Positions 6,408 to 34,018 of a stretch of 52,037 bases of DNA are shown in pieces. The notes beneath the pieces are model-generated. The model was not told the origin of the DNA, searched no databases, and was given only the letters and a program-made list of their open reading frames with translations. The translations under genes were made by a program, and so were the position numbers. This DNA comes from an uncultured Clostridia bacterium (lineage in GTDB: Bacteria; Bacillota; Clostridia; Oscillospirales; Ruminococcaceae), in NCBI GenBank assembly GCA_947625615.1, contig CANQPB010000016.1:1-52037 (forward strand), given 5' to 3'. Position 1 is the first letter of the stretch, and each line of letters opens with the position of its first letter.

Positions 6408-6436
6408 TTGATATTCTCGCCTCAATATGTTATAAT
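6408..6436 (+). promoter_or_regulatory. Promoter of the ten-gene hydrogenase operon
   Basis: TTGATA at 6408-6413 and TATAAT at 6431-6436 have a 17-base spacer. No second strong promoter or terminator is visible until 14813. Confidence 0.82.
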
Positions 6437-6494
6437 TCCGTTGTATGTATACAGCAGATCGACATTTTTCCAATAAATTGAAAGGATTGATACC

Positions 6495-6989
6495 ATGAAA
6501 AAAAGAATCAGCGCTATCCCCTTCAAAGGCACTCCCGAGCAGGAAGCAAAGCTTAAGGCTGTCATCGAGGAGAAAAAGCACGTCGAGGGCTCCCTCATGC
6601 AGGTAATGCAGGAGGCCCAGGAAATTTACGGCTACCTTCCCCTTGAAGTCCAGCAGATGATCGCCGCCGGAATGGGCGTGTCGGTCGAGGACGTCTACGG
6701 AATAGCCACCTTCTACGCACAGTTCGCGCTTTCGCCCAAGGGCGAGCACCAGATCTCCGTCTGCCTCGGCACCGCCTGCTATGTCAAGGGCTCGCAGGAC
6801 ATCATCGACCGCATCTCCGAAGTTCTCGGGATCCAGTCGGGCGAATGCACCCCCGACGGCAAATTCTCGCTTGAGGCCTGCCGCTGCATAGGCGCCTGCG
6901 GCCTTGCCCCCGTCATGACGGTCGGCGACGACGTCTACGGCAGACTTACCAAGGCCGACGTCGACACCATTCTGGCAAAATATAAATAA
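6495..6989 (+). CDS. hndA: Hydrogenase subunit HndA/NuoE-like [2Fe-2S] protein
   Basis: A 164-residue thioredoxin-like [2Fe-2S] ferredoxin, homologous to complex I NuoE and to HydC of bifurcating hydrogenases. The N-terminal helical domain is followed by the cluster ligands Cys90 and Cys95 (CLGTAC), then Cys131 and Cys135 (RCIGAC). It should pass electrons between the flavin subunit and the hydrogenase subunit. It opens the operon, but the other three structural subunits come six genes later (10793-14796). Alternative naming from Thermotoga would be hydC. Confidence 0.93.
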   Translation: MKKRISAIPFKGTPEQEAKLKAVIEEKKHVEGSLMQVMQEAQEIYGYLPLEVQQMIAAGMGVSVEDVYGIATFYAQFALSPKGEHQISVCLGTACYVKGSQDIIDRISEVLGIQSGECTPDGKFSLEACRCIGACGLAPVMTVGDDVYGRLTKADVDTILAKYK

Positions 6990-7025
6990 GCCTTAACCAT
7001 CAGATTCGCGACAGGGGTTATTAGT

Positions 7026-7382
7026 ATGAAAATTTCTGATATCAAAACGCTTCTTGACGCCAAGGTGCTCTGCGGAGAGGAACATCTCGACCGCGACGTT
7101 TTCTCGGCCTGCGGCTCCGACATGATGAGCGACGTTTTGGCCTATGTTAAAGATCAGGCGGTGCTTCTCACCGGGCTTGTCAATTCCCAGGTAATAAGAA
7201 CCGCCGAGATGATGGACATGATATGCATAGTCTTCGTGAGATCGAAAAAGCCCACCGACGACATGATAGAGCTTGCGCGTGAGAGCGGGCTTGTCCTTAT
7301 GAATACCGAAAAGAGAATGTACGAGGCCTGCGGACTTCTTTACACCAGCGGCCTTGTCGGAAACGGGGTACATCATGAGTGA
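7026..7382 (+). CDS. DRTGG-domain protein (first of two)
   Basis: A 118-residue protein that consists of one DRTGG-like domain. ACGSDMMSDVLAYV and LLTGLVNSQVIRTAEMMD match the family pattern. DRTGG domains occur in regulatory proteins and are thought to bind small ligands; no reaction is known. The operon carries a second such protein at 9128-9454. The gene overlaps the following anti-sigma-type ATPase by eight bases, suggesting tight co-expression and possibly a complex. A ligand-sensing role next to a kinase-fold ATPase is inference. Confidence 0.82.
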   Translation: MKISDIKTLLDAKVLCGEEHLDRDVFSACGSDMMSDVLAYVKDQAVLLTGLVNSQVIRTAEMMDMICIVFVRSKKPTDDMIELARESGLVLMNTEKRMYEACGLLYTSGLVGNGVHHE

Positions 7383-7797
7383 TTCTCTGAGATTCCACTT
7401 CGACGTTAACGGCCAGAGCTTCACTTCCGCAGGACAGGCGTCGGTTCAGGTGAAAAAGAATCTCAGAGAGCTCGGAATTCCCGCCGAAACCATAAGGCGC
7501 GTTTCCATCGCAATGTATGAGGGCGAGATAAATATGGTCATTCACGCCCACGGCGGCGAAGCGGACGTTATCGTCTATGAAGACCGCATAGAAATCATTC
7601 TTGCCGACCGCGGCCCCGGGATCCCGAACATCGAGCTTGCCATGAAAGAGGGCTATTCAACCGCCCCCGACAACATTCGCTCGCTCGGCTTCGGCGCCGG
7701 AATGGGCCTGCCGAACATGAAGCGCTATACCGACGATATGAAAATTGAAACCGAGCTCGGAAAAGGCACCACCATAACCATGCGCGTCAACATCTGA
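7375..7797 (+). CDS. RsbW/SpoIIAB-like HATPase (anti-sigma-type kinase)
   Basis: A 140-residue stand-alone GHKL ATPase. The N-box region IAMYEGEINMVIHA, the G1 box DRGPGIP, the G2 region GAGMGLPNMKRY and the final GKGTTITM are all in place, so ATP binding is likely. No histidine phosphotransfer domain is present. Proteins of this shape act as serine kinases and anti-sigma factors in partner-switching systems. No STAS-type antagonist is nearby, so the target is unknown. I start at ATG 7375, inside the end of the DRTGG gene. Its position before the sensory hydrogenase-like gene is typical of clostridial hydrogenase clusters. Confidence 0.87.
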   Translation: MSDSLRFHFDVNGQSFTSAGQASVQVKKNLRELGIPAETIRRVSIAMYEGEINMVIHAHGGEADVIVYEDRIEIILADRGPGIPNIELAMKEGYSTAPDNIRSLGFGAGMGLPNMKRYTDDMKIETELGKGTTITMRVNI

Positions 7798-7829
7798 GCC
7801 GGCAAAAGTCACATTCTGGCGGTGAAATT

Positions 7830-9131
7830 ATGAATACATACGAACATTCCGTATCGCTCGACCCGTCGCGCTGCACCGGGTGCACCACCTGCATTAAGCG
7901 CTGCCCGACCGAGGCTATACGCGTCGACGGCGGAAAGGCAAAGATAAATTCCGACCGCTGCATCGACTGCGGCGAGTGCATAAGGATCTGCCCCCACCAC
8001 GCAAAGATAGCCACCTGCAACAAGCTCGATCACCTTTACGACTATAAATGGCGGATCGCCCTTCCGGCGCCCACCCTTTACGGCCAGTTCGAGGGTCTCG
8101 ACGACGTCGACTACGTTCTTCAGGGGCTTTTGGACATGGGCTTCAACGAGGTCTACGAGGTTTCGCAGGCGGCGGAGATAGTTTCGGAATATACAAGGCT
8201 CTACCTTAAAACCGAGGGCATAAAAAAGCCGGTCATAAGCTCGGCCTGCCCGGTTGTGGCAAGGCTTATCGGTCTGAGATTCCCCTATTTAAAGGACAAT
8301 CTTCTGCCTATACTTCCGCCGATGGAGATAGCCGCAATCGAGGCCCGCAAAAAAGCAAAGCGGGAGCACCCCGAGCTTAAGGACGAGGACATTGGCGTCT
8401 GCTTCATATCCCCCTGCCCCGCAAAGACGAGCTACGTTAAAAACGGCTTCGGGACGTATAAATCGAACGTCGATCTCGTCGTCTCGATGTCGGATATCTA
8501 CTTCTCGCTTCTGAATCTTATGAGCCGCGACAAGGCCCCCCAGCCGGTCTCCAATTCCGGAATGATAGGCATAAGCTGGGCAACATCCGGCGGAGAGGCC
8601 GCGGCGATCTTCAACGACAAATATCTCGCCGCTGACAGCATTGAAAACGTAGTCGAGATGCTCGATCAGATAGAAAACGGCACCATTCCCCCGCTCGAAT
8701 TCATCGAGCTCAACGCCTGCACCGGCGGCTGCGTCGGCGGGGTAATGACGGTGGAAAACCCGTTTATAGCAAAGGCCCGCCTGCAGACCCTCCGCAGATA
8801 TATGCCCGTCTCCCGCAATTTTTTGGAGGGCGACGACAAATATATCCCACCGGAATATTTCTTCGAGGACGTGCCCGACTATAAGCCCATGAACCGCCTC
8901 GGCAGCTCTATAGGCGAATCGATGAGAATGATGTCTGACATACAGAAGCTTCGCGACGAGCTCCCCGGAATAGACTGCGGATCCTGCGGAGCGCCCAACT
9001 GCCGCGCCTTCGCCGAAGACGTTGTAAAGGGAGAGCGCTCGCTTGAAAGCTGCATTATCCGCGCGCACAGAATCGCAAACGGCGAGCCGGTAAATTCGGC
9101 CCCGCATGAAAGAAAGGTCGACGGCATATGA
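7830..9131 (+). CDS. Sensory-type [FeFe]-hydrogenase-like iron-sulfur protein
   Basis: A 433-residue protein. An N-terminal 2x[4Fe-4S] ferredoxin (Cys15/18/21/25 and Cys44/47/50/54) leads into a hydrogenase large-subunit domain. A C-terminal four-Cys cluster motif follows (Cys383, 386, 391, 408). The four H-cluster positions are held by Cys140, Cys196, Cys297 and Cys301, in SSACP, SPCPAK and NACTGGC. Compared with the catalytic paralogue at 13039-14796, motif L1 reads SSACP rather than TSCSP. L2 lacks the usual Met and Glu. Loss of the L1 cysteine in favour of Ala is known from putative sensory hydrogenases, so I infer an H2 or redox sensor rather than a turnover enzyme. It is often called HsfB-like. 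Confidence 0.88.
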   Translation: MNTYEHSVSLDPSRCTGCTTCIKRCPTEAIRVDGGKAKINSDRCIDCGECIRICPHHAKIATCNKLDHLYDYKWRIALPAPTLYGQFEGLDDVDYVLQGLLDMGFNEVYEVSQAAEIVSEYTRLYLKTEGIKKPVISSACPVVARLIGLRFPYLKDNLLPILPPMEIAAIEARKKAKREHPELKDEDIGVCFISPCPAKTSYVKNGFGTYKSNVDLVVSMSDIYFSLLNLMSRDKAPQPVSNSGMIGISWATSGGEAAAIFNDKYLAADSIENVVEMLDQIENGTIPPLEFIELNACTGGCVGGVMTVENPFIAKARLQTLRRYMPVSRNFLEGDDKYIPPEYFFEDVPDYKPMNRLGSSIGESMRMMSDIQKLRDELPGIDCGSCGAPNCRAFAEDVVKGERSLESCIIRAHRIANGEPVNSAPHERKVDGI

Positions 9132-9454
9132 CGGTAACTGAGCTTTGTGAAAAATGCGGCTTCGAGGCCGTCTGCATGCCCGAGCCCGACCGCGAGGTTA
9201 CCGGCGGCTACTGCGGAGACCTTTTAAGCTGGGTGATGGGCAGGGCGAAATCGGGCCAGGCCTGGGTGACGATAATGTCTAACCTTAATATCGCGGCCGT
9301 GGCCACGCTGTGCGACACCGCCTGCATCGTTCTTTCGGAAAACGTCTCGCCCGACGCGGGCGTTGCAGAAAGCGCCGAAATGCGGGGGATAAACATTCTG
9401 AAAACCCCGCTGCCCACCTTTGAGGCCGCAGTTTTGATATCCGAAAATCTATGA
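9128..9454 (+). CDS. DRTGG-domain protein (second of two)
   Basis: A 108-residue single-domain protein resembling DRTGG domains: VTGGYCGDLLSWVMGRA, then a strand-rich middle ending in a C-terminal FEAAVLI segment. It overlaps the sensory hydrogenase-like gene before it and the PHP gene after it by four bases each (ATGA). The three are therefore translationally coupled. The two DRTGG proteins differ in sequence and flank the sensor, which suggests they serve different steps. No enzymatic residues are recognisable. Confidence 0.8.
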   Translation: MTVTELCEKCGFEAVCMPEPDREVTGGYCGDLLSWVMGRAKSGQAWVTIMSNLNIAAVATLCDTACIVLSENVSPDAGVAESAEMRGINILKTPLPTFEAAVLISENL

Positions 9455-10194
9455 GCAGCTATTACTACGACCTGCATATCCATTCCTGCCTGTCGCCCTG
9501 CGCCGACAACGACATGACCCCCGCAAACATTGCGGGAACCGCCACCCTTGCCGGCATTCAGATAATGGCGCTGACGGATCACAACTCGGTGAAAAACTGC
9601 CCCGCCTTCTTTAAGGCCTGCAAAAAATACGGCGTAATTCCCGTCCCGGGAATGGAGCTTACAACCGCCGAGGACATTCACGTCGTCTGCCTGTTCGACG
9701 AACTCGACAGCGCCATGGCCTTCGGCGAAGAGGTGGATTCCCGCCGGGTGCTTATCCCGAACCGCACCGATATCTTCGGCGATCAGCTTATCATGGACGA
9801 AGACGAAAATGTTGTGAGCCGTGAGGAAAATCTTCTGCCGAACGCCACCGAGATCACGGTGGAGGAGGCGCCGAAGATCGTTGAAAAATACGGCGGCGTC
9901 TGCTACCCCGCGCATATCGACCGCCAGGCAAACGGGATAATCGCCACCTTGGGAACTTTTCCCGATTACCCGCCGTTTACCTGCGCCGAGCTGCACGACA
10001 AGGAAAAAATCCCCATGCATCTCGAAAAATATCCTGTTCTTCAGAATAAGCGGATAGTGATAAGCTCGGACGCGCACTATCTTTGGGACATACGCGACGC
10101 CGACGCCAAAATGGAAATAGACGACGAGCCATATTCCTCGGCGACGGTGAGAAAGCGGCTTATAGAGCTTTTAAAGCGGGAGGCAGACAGATGA
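9451..10194 (+). CDS. PHP-domain metal-dependent phosphoesterase
   Basis: A 247-residue protein of the polymerase and histidinol phosphatase family. The metal motifs appear in order: DLHIHS (about 7-12), TDH (about 42-44), PGMELT (about 66-71), a PAHID histidine (about 152) and SSDAHY (about 205-210). That set supports a trinuclear metal site and phosphoesterase activity; the substrate is unknown. Four-base overlaps on both sides tie it to the DRTGG and HATPase genes. In a sensing module it could remove a phosphate or break down a nucleotide signal, which is inference. Confidence 0.88.
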   Translation: MSSYYYDLHIHSCLSPCADNDMTPANIAGTATLAGIQIMALTDHNSVKNCPAFFKACKKYGVIPVPGMELTTAEDIHVVCLFDELDSAMAFGEEVDSRRVLIPNRTDIFGDQLIMDEDENVVSREENLLPNATEITVEEAPKIVEKYGGVCYPAHIDRQANGIIATLGTFPDYPPFTCAELHDKEKIPMHLEKYPVLQNKRIVISSDAHYLWDIRDADAKMEIDDEPYSSATVRKRLIELLKREADR

Positions 10195-10745
10195 AGGAGC
10201 TTTCGCTGAACATTCTTGACGTTGCGAAAAATTCCGTAAAGGCGGGTGCAAGCCTCGTTAAAATAGAGATCGACGAGACGGACGAAACCCTAAGGATAAC
10301 CATTTCGGACGACGGCTGCGGAATGAAGCCCGACTTTTTGCAAAACGTGACCGATCCCTTTTGCACCACCCGCACCACCCGCGCGGTCGGCCTCGGGATA
10401 CCGCTGTTGAAGCTTCAGGCCGAACAGACGGGCGGAGAGCTTACGATAAGCTCGAAGCATATAGACGATCACCCCGAAGATCACGGCACCGTAACCTCGG
10501 CGCTCTTTTACAAAAATCACATCGACATGACCCCCCTCGGGGACGTCTGCGGCTCGGTGGTAACCCTTATTCAGGGAAGCCCCGACATAGACTTTCTGTA
10601 TATCCACAAAACGCCTAAGGGCGATATATCGCTCGACACCCGCGAGCTGCGGGAGGTTTTGGGCGGCGATGTTCCGCTTGACAACGCCGAGGTGCTTATG
10701 TGGATAACCGAAAACCTTAACGAACAGTATAACTCAGTTTCCTAA
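10191..10745 (+). CDS. Stand-alone histidine-kinase-like ATPase (HATPase)
   Basis: A 184-residue protein that starts with the N-box LNILDVAKNSVKAGASLV. It continues with G1 DDGCGM, a DPFCTTRTTRAVGLGIPLLK lid and G2 region, and HGTVTSALF. ATP binding is therefore likely, but there is no dimerisation/phospho-histidine domain. The C-terminal 70 residues are family-specific. It starts in the stop of the PHP gene (ATGA overlap) with GGGAGG upstream. With the RsbW-like protein at 7375-7797 the operon encodes two kinase-fold ATPases, both lacking receivers or sensor domains of their own. Confidence 0.85.
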   Translation: MKELSLNILDVAKNSVKAGASLVKIEIDETDETLRITISDDGCGMKPDFLQNVTDPFCTTRTTRAVGLGIPLLKLQAEQTGGELTISSKHIDDHPEDHGTVTSALFYKNHIDMTPLGDVCGSVVTLIQGSPDIDFLYIHKTPKGDISLDTRELREVLGGDVPLDNAEVLMWITENLNEQYNSVS

Positions 10746-10792
10746 AGCAAAAGCTTAATTATAAAAATACCAAATAGAAAGGAAAATGTATT

Positions 10793-11161
10793 ATGAAATC
10801 TTTAGCTGAACTCGCTGCAATCAGGGAAAGAATGAAGGACAGAGTGGTTCTGCGCGAGGGGCAGGGCGATATCCGCGTCGTCGTCGGCATGGCGACCTGC
10901 GGCATTGCCGCCGGTGCAAGACCGGTTCTTTCGGCGTTTGTCGAAGGTGTTGCCAACGCCGGACTTTCCGACAAGGTGACCGTCACCCAGACCGGCTGCA
11001 TAGGCATCTGCCAGTATGAGCCCGTCGTAGAGGTCTTTGAAGCCGGCAAGGAAAAGGTCACCTATGTAAAGATGACCGCCGACAAGGCCAAAGAGGTTAT
11101 CGAAAAGCACCTTAAGGGCGGCTCGCCCGTTGCCGAATACACCATCGGCAGCAATCAGTAA
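10793..11161 (+). CDS. hndB: Hydrogenase subunit HndB-like thioredoxin-fold ferredoxin
   Basis: A 122-residue thioredoxin-like [2Fe-2S]-family protein, like HndB of NADP-reducing hydrogenases. VVVGMATCGIAAGARPV and QTGCIGICQYEPVVEV are the family motifs. Only three cysteines (36, 69, 73) occur instead of the four found in NuoE, so how a cluster is held is unclear; this seems usual for the subfamily. The gene comes 47 bases after the HATPase gene and 32 bases before the flavin subunit, within the same operon. Confidence 0.88.
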   Translation: MKSLAELAAIRERMKDRVVLREGQGDIRVVVGMATCGIAAGARPVLSAFVEGVANAGLSDKVTVTQTGCIGICQYEPVVEVFEAGKEKVTYVKMTADKAKEVIEKHLKGGSPVAEYTIGSNQ

Positions 11162-11193
11162 ACCGAGATAAATTTTAGGAGGTATATAAAATT

Positions 11194-13020
11194 ATGATTC
11201 GTGCACAAGTGCTGATTTGCGGCGGTACAGGCTGCACCTCATCGGGCTCCAAGGCGATCCAGCAGGCTTTCACCGAGCAGATCGACATTGCGGGACTTGC
11301 AGATGAGGTAAAACTGGTTCAGACCGGCTGCTTCGGTCTCTGCGCCCTCGGCCCCGTCGTTATAATCTATCCCGACGGAACATTCTATTCAAGAGTTACC
11401 GCCGAAGACGTCCCCGAAATCGTTTCGGAACACCTTTTGAAGGGACGCGTCGTTGAGCGCCTTGTCTACGCCGACACCGGCGATCAGACCGTTGAAAACG
11501 TCGCCGACGTATCTCTTTCCGACACCGCCTTCTATAAGGCGCAGCACCGCGTTGCCCTTCGCAACTGCGGAGTTATCAACCCCGAAAACATCGACGAGTA
11601 CATAGCCATGGACGGCTATCAGGCTCTCGGCAAGGTTCTCACCGAAATGACCCCCGAGGAGGTCATCGACGTCGTCCTCAAGTCGGGTCTTCGCGGACGC
11701 GGCGGCGCCGGCTTCCCGACCGGCAGAAAATGGTCTATGGCGAGGACTCTCGTTCCCGACGCCGATCAGAAATACGTCTGCTGCAACGCCGACGAAGGCG
11801 ACCCGGGCGCGTTTATGGATCGCTCGGTTTTGGAGGGCGACCCCCACGCCGTTCTGGAAGCCATGGCCATTGCCGGCTACGCCATCGGCGCAAACCAGGG
11901 CTTCATCTATGTAAGAGCAGAATACCCCATCGCCGTAAGCCGCCTGAAAATAGCCATTCAGCAGGCGCATGAATACGGCCTTTTAGGCAAGAATATCTTC
12001 GGCACCGGCTTTGACTTCGACATCGAGCTCAGGCTCGGCGCGGGCGCTTTCGTCTGCGGCGAGGAAACCGCCCTTATGACCTCTATCGAGGGCAAGCGCG
12101 GCGAGCCGAGACCGAGGCCTCCCTTCCCGGCCGTTAAGGGCCTCTTCGGCAAGCCGACTATTCTCAACAACGTAGAAACCTACGCAAATATCCCCCAGAT
12201 AATCCTCAAGGGCGCCGATTGGTTCGCCTCCATGGGCACCGAAAAATCGAAGGGCACAAAGGTATTCGCCCTCGGCGGCAAGATCAAGCACACCGGCCTC
12301 GTCGAGGTTCCTATGGGCACCACCTTAAGGCAGATAGTCGAGGAGATCGGCGGCGGCATACCGAACGGCAAGAAGTTCAAGGCTGCCCAGACCGGCGGCC
12401 CCTCCGGCGGCTGCATTCCCGCGGAGCACCTTGACGTCCCGATAGACTATGACAACCTCATCGCCATCGGCTCGATGATGGGCTCGGGCGGACTTATCGT
12501 CATGGACGAGGACAACTGCATGGTAGACATCGCGAAATTCTTCCTTGAATTCACCGTCGACGAATCCTGCGGAAAGTGCACCCCCTGCCGCGTCGGCACC
12601 AAGAGGCTTCTTGAAATGCTCACCAAGATCACCGAGGGCAAGGGCACCATGGAAGACCTTGACAGAATGGAAGAGCTTTGCTACTACATCAAGAACAACG
12701 CTCTGTGCGGCCTGGGTCAGACCGCGCCCAACCCCGTTCTTTCAACCCTCAGATACTTCAGGGACGAATATGTCGCCCACATCGTCGACAAGAAATGCCC
12801 CGCCGGCGTCTGCAAAAAGCTTCTCACCTATAAGATCGACCGCGAAAAGTGCATAGGCTGCGGAATGTGCGCGCGTCAGTGCCCTGCGAGCGCCATCTCA
12901 AAGACCGACTACACCGCTCCCGGCAAGAAGCTCCCCGCTATGGCGATCGACCCGCAGAAGTGCGTCAAGTGCGGCGCCTGCATGAGCTCCTGCAAGTTCA
13001 AGGCCATTTCCAAGGAATAA
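11194..13020 (+). CDS. hndC: Hydrogenase flavin subunit HndC/NuoF-like
   Basis: A 608-residue NAD(P)H-oxidising diaphorase subunit. An N-terminal thioredoxin-like [2Fe-2S] domain carries Cys9, 14, 46 and 50. The NuoF core follows with the NAD/FMN segments GLRGRGGAGFPTGRKW (about 165) and NADEGDPGAFMDRS (about 198), and an SLBB region. The [4Fe-4S] motif ESCGKCTPCRVGT is near 457. A C-terminal 2x[4Fe-4S] ferredoxin (CIGCGMCARQC near 553, CVKCGACMSSC near 590) ends the protein. This is the architecture of the flavin subunit of electron-bifurcating or NADP-reducing [FeFe]-hydrogenases. It lies 18 bases upstream of the catalytic subunit. Confidence 0.95.
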   Translation: MIRAQVLICGGTGCTSSGSKAIQQAFTEQIDIAGLADEVKLVQTGCFGLCALGPVVIIYPDGTFYSRVTAEDVPEIVSEHLLKGRVVERLVYADTGDQTVENVADVSLSDTAFYKAQHRVALRNCGVINPENIDEYIAMDGYQALGKVLTEMTPEEVIDVVLKSGLRGRGGAGFPTGRKWSMARTLVPDADQKYVCCNADEGDPGAFMDRSVLEGDPHAVLEAMAIAGYAIGANQGFIYVRAEYPIAVSRLKIAIQQAHEYGLLGKNIFGTGFDFDIELRLGAGAFVCGEETALMTSIEGKRGEPRPRPPFPAVKGLFGKPTILNNVETYANIPQIILKGADWFASMGTEKSKGTKVFALGGKIKHTGLVEVPMGTTLRQIVEEIGGGIPNGKKFKAAQTGGPSGGCIPAEHLDVPIDYDNLIAIGSMMGSGGLIVMDEDNCMVDIAKFFLEFTVDESCGKCTPCRVGTKRLLEMLTKITEGKGTMEDLDRMEELCYYIKNNALCGLGQTAPNPVLSTLRYFRDEYVAHIVDKKCPAGVCKKLLTYKIDREKCIGCGMCARQCPASAISKTDYTAPGKKLPAMAIDPQKCVKCGACMSSCKFKAISKE

Positions 13021-13038
13021 GGAGGAAGTCGTTCAGTT

Positions 13039-14796
13039 ATGGATAAAATGATAAATCTTAAGATAGACGGCGTCGCCGTCAGCGTGCCCGACGGCACGAC
13101 TATACTTGAAGCCGCAAGACTTGCCGGCATCAACGTGCCCACCCTCTGCTACATGAAAGACCTCAACCAGATAGGCGCCTGCCGCATCTGCGTCGTCGAG
13201 GCCAACGAGGGAAGGGGCTTCCGCACCGTTGCCTCCTGCGTATATCCCGTCACCGAGGGCATGGAGGTCAGAACCAATTCCGTCGCCGTTCAGAAATCCC
13301 GCAGAACCACCCTTGAGCTGCTTCTGTCAACTCACGACAGAAAGTGCCTCTCCTGCGTGAGATCGGACAACTGCGAATTCCAGAAGCTCTGCCGCGACTA
13401 CGGCGTTGAAAAGGAAGACGCTTTCGACGGCGAGAAGCCCGTTTACGAGCTTGACACCAGCGCCCCGCACATGATCCGCGACAACAACAAGTGCGTTCTC
13501 TGCCGCCGCTGCATTGCCGCCTGCAAGGCCCAGCACGTTTCGGTAATCGGCACCAACGACCGCGGCATCGACACCAACGTATCCTGCGGCTTCGGCCTCG
13601 GGCTTGCCGACGTCGGCTGCGTAAGCTGCGGACAGTGCATCATAAACTGCCCGACCGGCGCTTTAAGAGAAAAGGACGATACCGACAAGGTATTCGCCGC
13701 CATCAATGATCCCGAAAAGGTCGTCATAGTTCAGACCGCTCCCGCCGTCCGCGCCGCCCTCGGCGAAGAGTTCGGCATGGAGATCGGCACCGGCGTAGAG
13801 GGCAAAATGGTTGCCGCCCTGCGCAGGCTCGGCTTCGACAAGGTCTTCGACACCGACGTCGGCGCCGACCTCACCATCATGGAGGAGGCCTCGGAATTCG
13901 TCCACCGCGTTCAGAACGGCGGCGTTCTTCCCATGATCACCTCCTGCTCGCCCGGCTGGGTAAAGTTCTGCGAGACCTACCACCCGAACATGATACCCAA
14001 TCTCTCCTCCTGCAAATCTCCTCAGCAGATGTTCGGCGCGGTCATAAAGACCTGGTACGCCGAAAAGAACGGCATCGATCCCAAGAAGATCGTCTCCGTT
14101 TCGGTTATGCCCTGCACCGCCAAGAAGTTTGAGATCAAGCGCGACGACCAGTCCGCCGCCGGTATCCCCGATCTTGACATTTCCATCACCACCCGCGAGC
14201 TCGCCAGAATGATAAAGCGCGCCGGCATCGATTTCGCTCACCTTCCCGATGAGAAATTCGACAGCCCGCTCGGCGACGCCACCGGCGCGGGAGTTATCTT
14301 CGGCGCGACAGGCGGCGTTATGGAAGCCGCCCTCAGAACCGTTGCCGACACCCTTGAAGGCAAGTCGCTCGACAATGTCGACTACCACGCTGTCCGCGGC
14401 ACCGACGCCATCAAGGAGGCCACCGTTCACGTTGCGGGAATGGACGTAAACATCTGCGTCTGCTCCGGCCTCGACGCCGCCCACAAGGTGCTCACCTCGG
14501 TTGAAAACGGCGAGAAGAATTACCACTTCATCGAAATCATGTGCTGCCCCGGCGGCTGCGTAAACGGCGGCGGCCAGCCCATTCAGTCCGCTACCACCCG
14601 CGCCACTGTGGATATCAAGGCAAAGCGCGCCTCCGCCCTTTACAGCTACGACGCCGCAAACGTCAAGCGCAAGAGCCACGACAGCGAGGTAATGAAGGTT
14701 CTCTACAGCGAATTCTTCGGCGAGCCCGGCAGCCACAAGGCCCATGAGGTTCTGCACACCTCTTACGTCGACCGCTCAAAGAGTGTTGTGAAATAA
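13039..14796 (+). CDS. hndD: [FeFe]-hydrogenase catalytic subunit HndD/HydA
   Basis: A 585-residue hydrogenase with the full modular order. An N-terminal [2Fe-2S] domain (Cys37, 48, 51, 67) is followed by the His-Cys3 cluster HDRKCLSC..NC (His99, Cys103, 106, 112). Two [4Fe-4S] clusters come next (CVLCRRCIAAC and CVSCGQCIINC). The H-cluster domain has L1 TSCSPGW (301-307), L2 MPCTAKKFE (357-365) and L3 EIMCCPGGCVNGGGQP (499-514). A C-terminal small-subunit-like segment completes it. It reversibly makes H2. With HndA-C it probably couples H2 to NAD(P)H, possibly with ferredoxin bifurcation. GGAGG lies 13 bases before ATG 13039; an in-frame ATG at 13048 is an alternative. Confidence 0.97.
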   Translation: MDKMINLKIDGVAVSVPDGTTILEAARLAGINVPTLCYMKDLNQIGACRICVVEANEGRGFRTVASCVYPVTEGMEVRTNSVAVQKSRRTTLELLLSTHDRKCLSCVRSDNCEFQKLCRDYGVEKEDAFDGEKPVYELDTSAPHMIRDNNKCVLCRRCIAACKAQHVSVIGTNDRGIDTNVSCGFGLGLADVGCVSCGQCIINCPTGALREKDDTDKVFAAINDPEKVVIVQTAPAVRAALGEEFGMEIGTGVEGKMVAALRRLGFDKVFDTDVGADLTIMEEASEFVHRVQNGGVLPMITSCSPGWVKFCETYHPNMIPNLSSCKSPQQMFGAVIKTWYAEKNGIDPKKIVSVSVMPCTAKKFEIKRDDQSAAGIPDLDISITTRELARMIKRAGIDFAHLPDEKFDSPLGDATGAGVIFGATGGVMEAALRTVADTLEGKSLDNVDYHAVRGTDAIKEATVHVAGMDVNICVCSGLDAAHKVLTSVENGEKNYHFIEIMCCPGGCVNGGGQPIQSATTRATVDIKAKRASALYSYDAANVKRKSHDSEVMKVLYSEFFGEPGSHKAHEVLHTSYVDRSKSVVK

Positions 14797-14812: not shown

Positions 14813-14851
14813 AAAGACCCCTTTTCCGAAGAAAAGGGGTCTTTAGTTTTT
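14813..14851 (+). terminator. Terminator of the hydrogenase operon
   Basis: The 14-bp perfect stem AAAGACCCCTTTTC / GAAAAGGGGTCTTT with a CGAA loop is followed by AGTTTTT. It also has A-runs that allow termination of the convergent minus-strand operon. Confidence 0.93.
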
Positions 14852-33919: not shown

Positions 33920-34018
33920 AATATATCACGCTTTTACCCGTTTCGTCAAGAAATTATCAAAAACGCTTGACACTTTGGCGAATTGCTGATATAATATTAT
34001 AAATATTTGGCGTTTTGC
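33920..34018. promoter_or_regulatory. Divergent promoters with duplicated operator, XRE switch
   Basis: Plus: TTGACA (33967-33972) and TATAAT (33990-33995), 17-base spacer. Minus: TTGACG (33944-33949) and TATATT (33920-33925), 18-base spacer. The element TTTGGCGAATTGC sits in the plus spacer (33974-33986) and recurs as TTTGGCGTTTTGC at 34006-34018, 32 bases on. This matches the layout of the DUF6442 promoter. Confidence 0.75.

Follow-up and report, generated by a model that had tools for sequence, protein, structure and literature searches.

What do six genes of other families do inside an [FeFe] hydrogenase operon, and do they act together? The question is raised by a 52,037-nucleotide stretch of DNA (the window; contig CANQPB010000016.1 of assembly GCA_947625615.1) from an uncultured gut bacterium of the Clostridia. 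Its operon runs hndA, DRTGG1, HATP1, HydS, DRTGG2, PHP, HATP2, hndB, hndC and hndD (block 6495-14796, Table 1). A preliminary description of this DNA had placed the six inner genes in this order between hndA and hndBCD, on which coordinates and family matches agree, and had proposed that they form a single module. Because of their co-occurrence, their fusions and the existence of loci in which HydS is missing and HATP1 is extended, we conclude that the six genes almost certainly constitute one functional system, with a sensor that can be replaced.

Co-occurrence, fusions and exchange of the sensor

Among close relatives (the best 80 of 300 encoding loci found by a HydS profile scan of contigs; HydS identity 65-95%) the gene order is kept in all 80 as far as the contigs reach. 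All ten genes are present in window order in 55 of them, and the other 25 are contiguous runs ended by contig ends. Within the genus, HydS is found in 7 of 13 genomes, including that of the window. The same seven carry a close HndC (at least 82% identity, one cut by a contig end); the six HydS-negative genomes lack one, two of them showing only a partial match of 47-48%.

We also searched 398 genomes of the phylum with profiles of HydS, DRTGG1 and HATP2, which gave matches in 182 (E<=1e-30), 167 (E<=1e-10) and 169 genomes (E<=1e-20), respectively. Strong HydS matches (E<=1e-80) are present in 157 genomes, the 25 weaker ones being set aside; 151 of these 157 have DRTGG1 and 152 have HATP2. DRTGG1 and HATP2 occur together in 158 genomes, all three proteins in 146 and none in 220 (Fisher p < 1e-80, kinship ignored). 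The preliminary description held that the module idea would fail if the genes did not co-occur across genomes; they do, both in the close loci and in the phylum. DRTGG1 without a strong HydS is seen in 16 genomes. In three of these (L223, L224, L225; L and G numbers denote loci and genomes) HydS is frame-broken or cut by a contig end, and the remainder was partly inspected.

A set of 80 more distant regions, one per genome, was hand-picked among the listed strong matches and is not a random sample. Around HydS all six parts are found in 55 of these loci, the five without HATP2 in 60 and all ten genes in 43. At least six of the 25 loci that fall short of six parts are cut by contig ends (L140, L185, L187, L189, L193, L196); others are real variants. 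At one locus (L182) the gene in the DRTGG2 place scores 58.2 as DRTGG1 against 56.8 and was counted as DRTGG1. The order DRTGG1-HATP1-HydS-DRTGG2-PHP-HndA-HATP2-HndB-HndC-HndD is the most frequent, with 33 exact cases among the 80. The window order with hndA in front is not seen in the 80 distant loci, where hndA mostly lies between PHP and HATP2; the hndA-first order is a feature of the window's relatives. Two loci (L134, L135) consist of two divergent operons, the five-gene part standing apart from HndA-HATP2-HndBCD.

Neighbouring genes are fused in several combinations. DRTGG1 and HATP1 share a single frame in at least 11 genomes, six of which were profiled and read (L144, L145, L148, L158, L161, L200) and at least five of which are known from frame length alone. 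Single frames also join HATP1 to HydS (L190, L208) and HydS to DRTGG2 (L169, L177). Clean PHP-HATP2 frames of 425-441 amino acids occur in five genomes of one family (L199 was read), and a sixth has an internal stop. HATP2-HndB is seen in one genome only (L156). Pfam confirms the fused domains in L190, L169, L199 and L144; for L156 it confirms the HATPase part, the HndB part resting on our own profile. Apparent fusions in draft genomes may stem from misassembly, above all those shown by a single genome. The genes are also found split over complementary loci: in genomes G202 and G388, HATP1-HydS stands at one place (L160 and L209) and DRTGG1-DRTGG2-PHP-HATP2 at another (L233 and L231).

Five loci lack HydS and encode HATP1 in a long frame of 289-330 amino acids with an N-terminal extension. 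Four of them (L220, L221, L222, L229) have the order DRTGG1-HATP1-DRTGG2-PHP-HATP2; in the fifth (L219), DRTGG1-HATP1 is followed by HndB-like and Rnf-like genes (all Rnf names come from reading of sequences, with no family search). Pfam finds two CBS stretches in each of the extensions of L220 and L222. Those of L219 and L229 are CBS-like by reading of the letters, and that of L221 was not read. The fetched stretches of L220, L222 and L229 hold neither HydS nor hydrogenase genes, and the genome of L229 (G407) has a HydS copy elsewhere (L150). Elsewhere the HydS module stands beside Rnf-like genes (L204, L210), and some module copies stand alone. Judged from these sequences, the cassette consists of a five-protein core (DRTGG1, HATP1, DRTGG2, PHP and HATP2) and an exchangeable sensor, either HydS or the HATP1 extension. 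Since the sensor is exchangeable, the cassette is tied neither to H2 nor to hydrogenase operons. The single module thus holds up as far as co-occurrence and neighbour fusions are concerned, but not as a fixed six-gene H2/hydrogenase unit, since the sensor is exchanged and copies occur in other places.

HydS-type hydrogenase domains are fused to other domains as well. One is joined to PAS-HisKA-HATPase (L169:12972-15281), another to an MCP chemotaxis signalling domain (L151:6537-8450) and a third to PAS plus a sigma-54 activator domain (L143:16088-18001, cut by the region end). Given their fusion to histidine kinase, chemotaxis and sigma-54 outputs, such domains can be regarded as signal inputs. 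At L151, L160 and L209, where HATP1-HydS lacks the rest of the core, it adjoins a response-regulator-like gene, and at L151 and L160 a KdpD-like kinase gene as well (both by reading).

Some observations weigh against a single, always complete system. The 398 genomes are related, and the p-values therefore overstate independence. Four otherwise complete loci lack PHP (L154, L165, L168, L171), and three others lack both PHP and DRTGG1 (L174, L190, L208). The PHP step is therefore not always needed, or is supplied elsewhere.

Protein families and conserved residues

DRTGG1 belongs to the DRTGG family by score (PF07085, 28.6 bits, cut-off 25.2) and by fold; its sequence matches in the PDB are weak only, and the fold was settled by fold search. 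DRTGG2 scores 24.6 bits, just under the same cut-off. STAS is absent from the fold matches listed for the DRTGG proteins, which is no evidence of a difference. A serine is invariant in both proteins (85 of 85 DRTGG1 and 84 of 84 DRTGG2 sequences; all residue counts cover only rows above set score and coverage limits), against 0 of 9 canonical DRTGG domains. In the predicted model of DRTGG1 this residue, S35, falls in the first turn of helix 34-40. The DRTGG2 motif shows some local resemblance to the letters of the STAS phosphorylation site, which was set aside as possibly due to chance.

HATP1 matches PF13581 with 43.7 bits. Its best NCBIfam match is SpoIIAB (TIGR01925), at 61.2 bits against a cut-off of 135, and TIGR01924 gives 28.8 against 155.05, so neither cut-off is reached. 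E48 and N52, which by our own reading we take to be the kinase Glu and N-box Asn of SpoIIAB, are kept in at least 97% of 89 sequences. PHP (PF02811, 40.7 bits, cut-off 26.4) keeps H9, H11, D43, H44, E69, H77, H155, D207 and H209, presumably metal ligands, in at least 97% of 74 sequences. HATP2 matches PF02518 with 51.1 bits. A new fold for its C-terminal part is not claimed, as MutL-type whole-chain matches span that part.

HydS matches PF02906 (86.9 bits) and PF04060 (53 bits). The cysteines of two N-terminal [4Fe-4S] motifs (C15, 18, 21, 25, 44, 47, 50 and 54) and those of the H-domain (C140, 196, 297 and 301) are present in at least 97% of 80 sequences; we presume the latter four to be the H-cluster ligands. 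The proton-relay cysteine is lost (A139 in the window protein): the motif reads ISSACP in 118 of 160 sequences, 35 more have other listed non-Cys forms and 7 are not listed. The C-terminal Cx2Cx4Cx16C is found in 160 of 160, and Pfam detects no PAS domain in the window HydS. These cysteine motifs, the relay loss, the C-terminal motif and an A6 partner in the operon point to group D (M2e). The partner, HndD, is of group A6 type (NF040763, 869.8 against a cut-off of 765). The serine of its TSCSPGW motif was considered as a special feature and rejected: it is shared with HydA1 (7q4v) and 106 of 109 HndD sequences, and is therefore ordinary for the subgroup.

Pfam finds no HisKA, receiver, STAS or PP2C domain among the ten operon proteins (the rest of the genome was not searched for PP2C), in agreement with the preliminary description, which saw no receiver or STAS partner locally. 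In the genome, the sole PF01740 STAS match is SpoIIAA-like and lies beside spoIIAB- and sigF-like genes (names by reading; PF13466 was not searched). HATP1 therefore appears to have no free STAS partner of the PF01740 type.

A possible phospho-switch and its alternatives

Given that no such STAS protein is free, that two serine-bearing partners stand beside the kinase and that PHP adjoins them, we propose a phospho-switch. The state of a HydS cluster (the H-cluster or an accessory [4Fe-4S]) would switch the GHKL kinase HATP1, which would phosphorylate the invariant DRTGG serine (S35 in DRTGG1, S34 in DRTGG2). The DRTGG proteins would stand where STAS proteins stand in the SpoIIAB and RsbW systems, and PHP would remove the phosphate in place of PP2C. 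HATP2 might then pass the result to the electron-bifurcating hydrogenase, or to Rnf in other genomes. For this redox/H2 signalling cassette as a whole the chances seem about even, and its parts differ in strength. It is probable that HydS drives HATP1, which adjoins it in the window and forms one protein with it in two genomes. The DRTGG serine as phospho-acceptor is plausible but falls somewhat short of likely, and only tentatively do we place the output on the enzyme rather than on transcription. HATP2 is the likeliest output arm, because its gene is next to that of HndB in the majority of the hydrogenase operons seen and some genomes have it fused to PHP or HndB. It might further be argued, with more doubt, that a new signalling class is involved. 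In such a class, SpoIIAB-like kinases would act on Ser-bearing DRTGG proteins, PHP would stand for PP2C, HATP2 would give the output and hydrogenase and CBS sensors would be swapped, so as to set ferredoxin-NAD enzymes (bifurcating hydrogenase, Rnf).

Several points speak against this switch. We infer all its phosphorylation steps and its target from sequence and context, and the invariant Ser, Asp and Thr could also belong to a ligand pocket. Confidence in the model is modest around S35 (mean predicted local distance difference test score 68, residues 31-40). Copies without hydrogenase genes count against a hydrogenase-only target. Maturation of the H-cluster is a further difficulty: the window genome gives no match for HydE or HydG and none over cut-off for HydF (HydE and HydF were searched in this genome only). 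None of the 13 genus genomes has HydG, nor does G015; these include all 8 HydS-positive genomes among the 21 searched. Four HydG-positive genomes of the 21 have no ortholog-level HydS (best 5.9e-34 versus 1e-190 or better). H2 sensing is therefore weakened and unproven in this lineage. Despite the missing HydE and HydG, HydS retains its H-domain cysteines and HndD its motifs. The iron-sulphur clusters of HydS may serve to read the redox state, or there may be a different route to the [2Fe] part. According to the available text of PMC13104023, H2 does not reduce the C-terminal cluster of TamHydS, which challenges that cluster as a relay.

The strongest competitor of the phospho-switch is nucleotide signalling, in which PHP would make or break a messenger, the DRTGG proteins (CBS elsewhere) would bind it and the GHKL proteins would be ATP-dependent switches instead of kinases. 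This explanation fits much of the same evidence, including the conserved Ser, Asp and Thr as a ligand pocket. Nevertheless, we consider it rather unlikely given that the serine is absent from the nine canonical DRTGG domains compared, that HATP1 keeps the kinase-type Glu and Asn, and that the matches listed for the ten operon proteins include neither a cyclase nor a nucleotide synthetase family. SpoIIAB as best NCBIfam match of HATP1 would agree with classical partner switching, HATP1 being an anti-sigma factor or kinase acting on a STAS protein and a sigma factor encoded elsewhere. Here, however, the match stays far under its curated cut-off, the ten window proteins lack STAS and PP2C, and the only PF01740 protein already has spoIIAB- and sigF-like neighbours (PF13466 and other loci being outside that search), which makes such a scheme improbable.

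An assembly or protection role for the cassette, with chaperone-like GHKL proteins and HydS as a scaffold, perhaps replacing HydEFG, would account for the missing HydG of the lineage, the missing HydE and sub-threshold HydF of the window genome, the MutL-type GHKL proteins as closest to the HATP2 model, and the HATP2-HndB fusion of one genome. The copies in L220, L222 and L229, whose fetched regions contain neither HydS nor hydrogenase genes, and the fusion of HydS-type domains elsewhere to signalling outputs argue against it, and there is little probability for this role. The view that the six genes share a transcript but no common function draws on operon logic only. It is contradicted by the co-occurrence, the fusions, the split complementary loci and the recurrence in differing surroundings, and can be considered extremely improbable.

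Known systems and operon signals

HydS beside kinase-like genes and a bifurcating hydrogenase is already published, as far as the available text of the two sources goes (PMC3561251, PMC8163306). In the former, group D M2e enzymes are listed with bifurcating hydrogenases and protein kinases close by, Cthe_0335 with Cthe_0340-0342 among them. The latter describes TamHydS as next to a HATPase and an AraC regulator, identifies no PAS domain in that operon in the parts available, and raises as a question how the signal is transduced. The HydS studied here resembles the TamHydS/Cthe_0335 type, on the available descriptions, in domain layout, lost relay cysteine, C-terminal Cx2Cx4Cx16C and the lack of PAS, and the window resembles it in the bifurcating hydrogenase of the operon and the kinase-like neighbour. 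The available portions of both papers, in contrast, do not name the DRTGG and PHP parts, the five-protein core, the fusions or the sensor exchange. No published account of the DRTGG/PHP core, sensor exchange, fusions or Ser signature was found in a search that left subscription literature mostly outside.

SpoIIAB/RsbW, SpoIIAA/RsbV and PP2C form the partner-switching scheme. Alike are the SpoIIAB-like kinase Glu and Asn, a small partner with a candidate acceptor serine and a phosphatase-type enzyme; here, however, DRTGG stands for STAS and PHP for PP2C, and the operon has no sigma factor. The CBS-DRTGG regulated pyrophosphatase (PDB 3l2b, 3l31) and the stand-alone DRTGG protein 2ioj share the DRTGG fold, the pyrophosphatase also the pairing of CBS with DRTGG. 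In our case these are separate proteins with kinases, and the D-x-x-S is absent from the nine canonical members. Group C HydS (PAS, HisKA-HATPase, as in L169:12972-15281) likewise uses an [FeFe] H-domain as signal input. Its output is a fused histidine kinase, whereas the proteins here are separate and have neither HisKA nor receiver.

The conserved partners and fusions name candidates for the signal route of group D sensory hydrogenases, and the two invariant serines offer single-residue tests. If the proposal is true, anaerobes would have a widespread means of adjusting how much H2 they produce and how they use ferredoxin, and DRTGG, PHP and orphan GHKL proteins would gain roles.

Table 1. 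Features of the ten-gene operon in the window
Feature	Position	Strand	Basis
Sigma-70-like promoter, TTGATA-17-TATAAT, TG before -10	6408..6436	+	motif scan, 11/12
GTTGTATGTATA, candidate operator just 3' of -10	6440..6451	+	upstream alignment
HndA, NuoE-like [2Fe-2S] subunit	6495..6989	+	PF01257
DRTGG1, with D32, invariant S35 and T49	7026..7382	+	PF07085
HATP1, SpoIIAB/RsbW-like GHKL ATPase; E48, N52, D77, G-rich lid	7378..7797	+	PF13581
HydS, group D (M2e-type) [FeFe] sensory hydrogenase, no PAS, C-terminal Cx2Cx4Cx16C	7830..9131	+	PF02906, PF04060
DRTGG2, with D31, S34, T48, N54	9128..9454	+	PF07085, just below cut-off
PHP phosphoesterase, presumed metal ligands conserved	9451..10194	+	PF02811
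HATP2, GHKL ATPase, conserved C-terminal part of ~80 amino acids	10191..10745	+	PF02518
HndB, [2Fe-2S] thioredoxin-like subunit	10793..11161	+	Pfam
HndC, NuoF-like flavin subunit	11194..13020	+	Pfam, NCBIfam
HndD, [FeFe] hydrogenase group A6	13039..14796	+	Pfam, NF040763
Terminator-like hairpin	14813..14844	+	pattern scan

From DRTGG1 through HATP2 the inner junctions measure -5, +32, -4, -4 and -4 bases, which bears out the preliminary description of five junctions that overlap or lie within 32 bases; the flanking gaps are 36 (hndA/DRTGG1) and 47 bases (HATP2/hndB). The one promoter and one terminator said to bracket all ten genes were both recovered as a promoter-like site and a hairpin. Similar matches are not rare in the region (18 promoter-like against 7.9 in shuffles, 26 terminator-like against 16.4). 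When the window is aligned with 10 close relatives, all 11 upstream stretches keep the -10 box and 8 show the -35 box; two are truncated by the limits of the region taken. In 28 of 74 upstream stretches the top promoter score reaches at least 10, against 6 of 74 shuffled ones. In the 80 close loci a strict hairpin-plus-T terminator pattern occurs at 2 of 666 inner junctions and at 30 of 53 positions after hndD.

Directly 3' of the -10 box, RTTGTATGTATA is present in 9 of the 11 aligned stretches, with variants in the remaining two. The element has one exact copy in the whole window and is a possible operator of the ten-gene operon. No Rex operator is found near the operon in the window, where one site with 3 mismatches at 33943 is at chance level. 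Six of the 80 distant loci have a Rex-like gene (NADH/NAD+ repressor) no more than 80 bp from DRTGG1, by motif recognition, with no family search; given this low count, the gene is placed outside the core. By motif or reading, it stands directly before DRTGG1 in L143, L144, L145, L148, L158 and L161, and also in L229 and L233.

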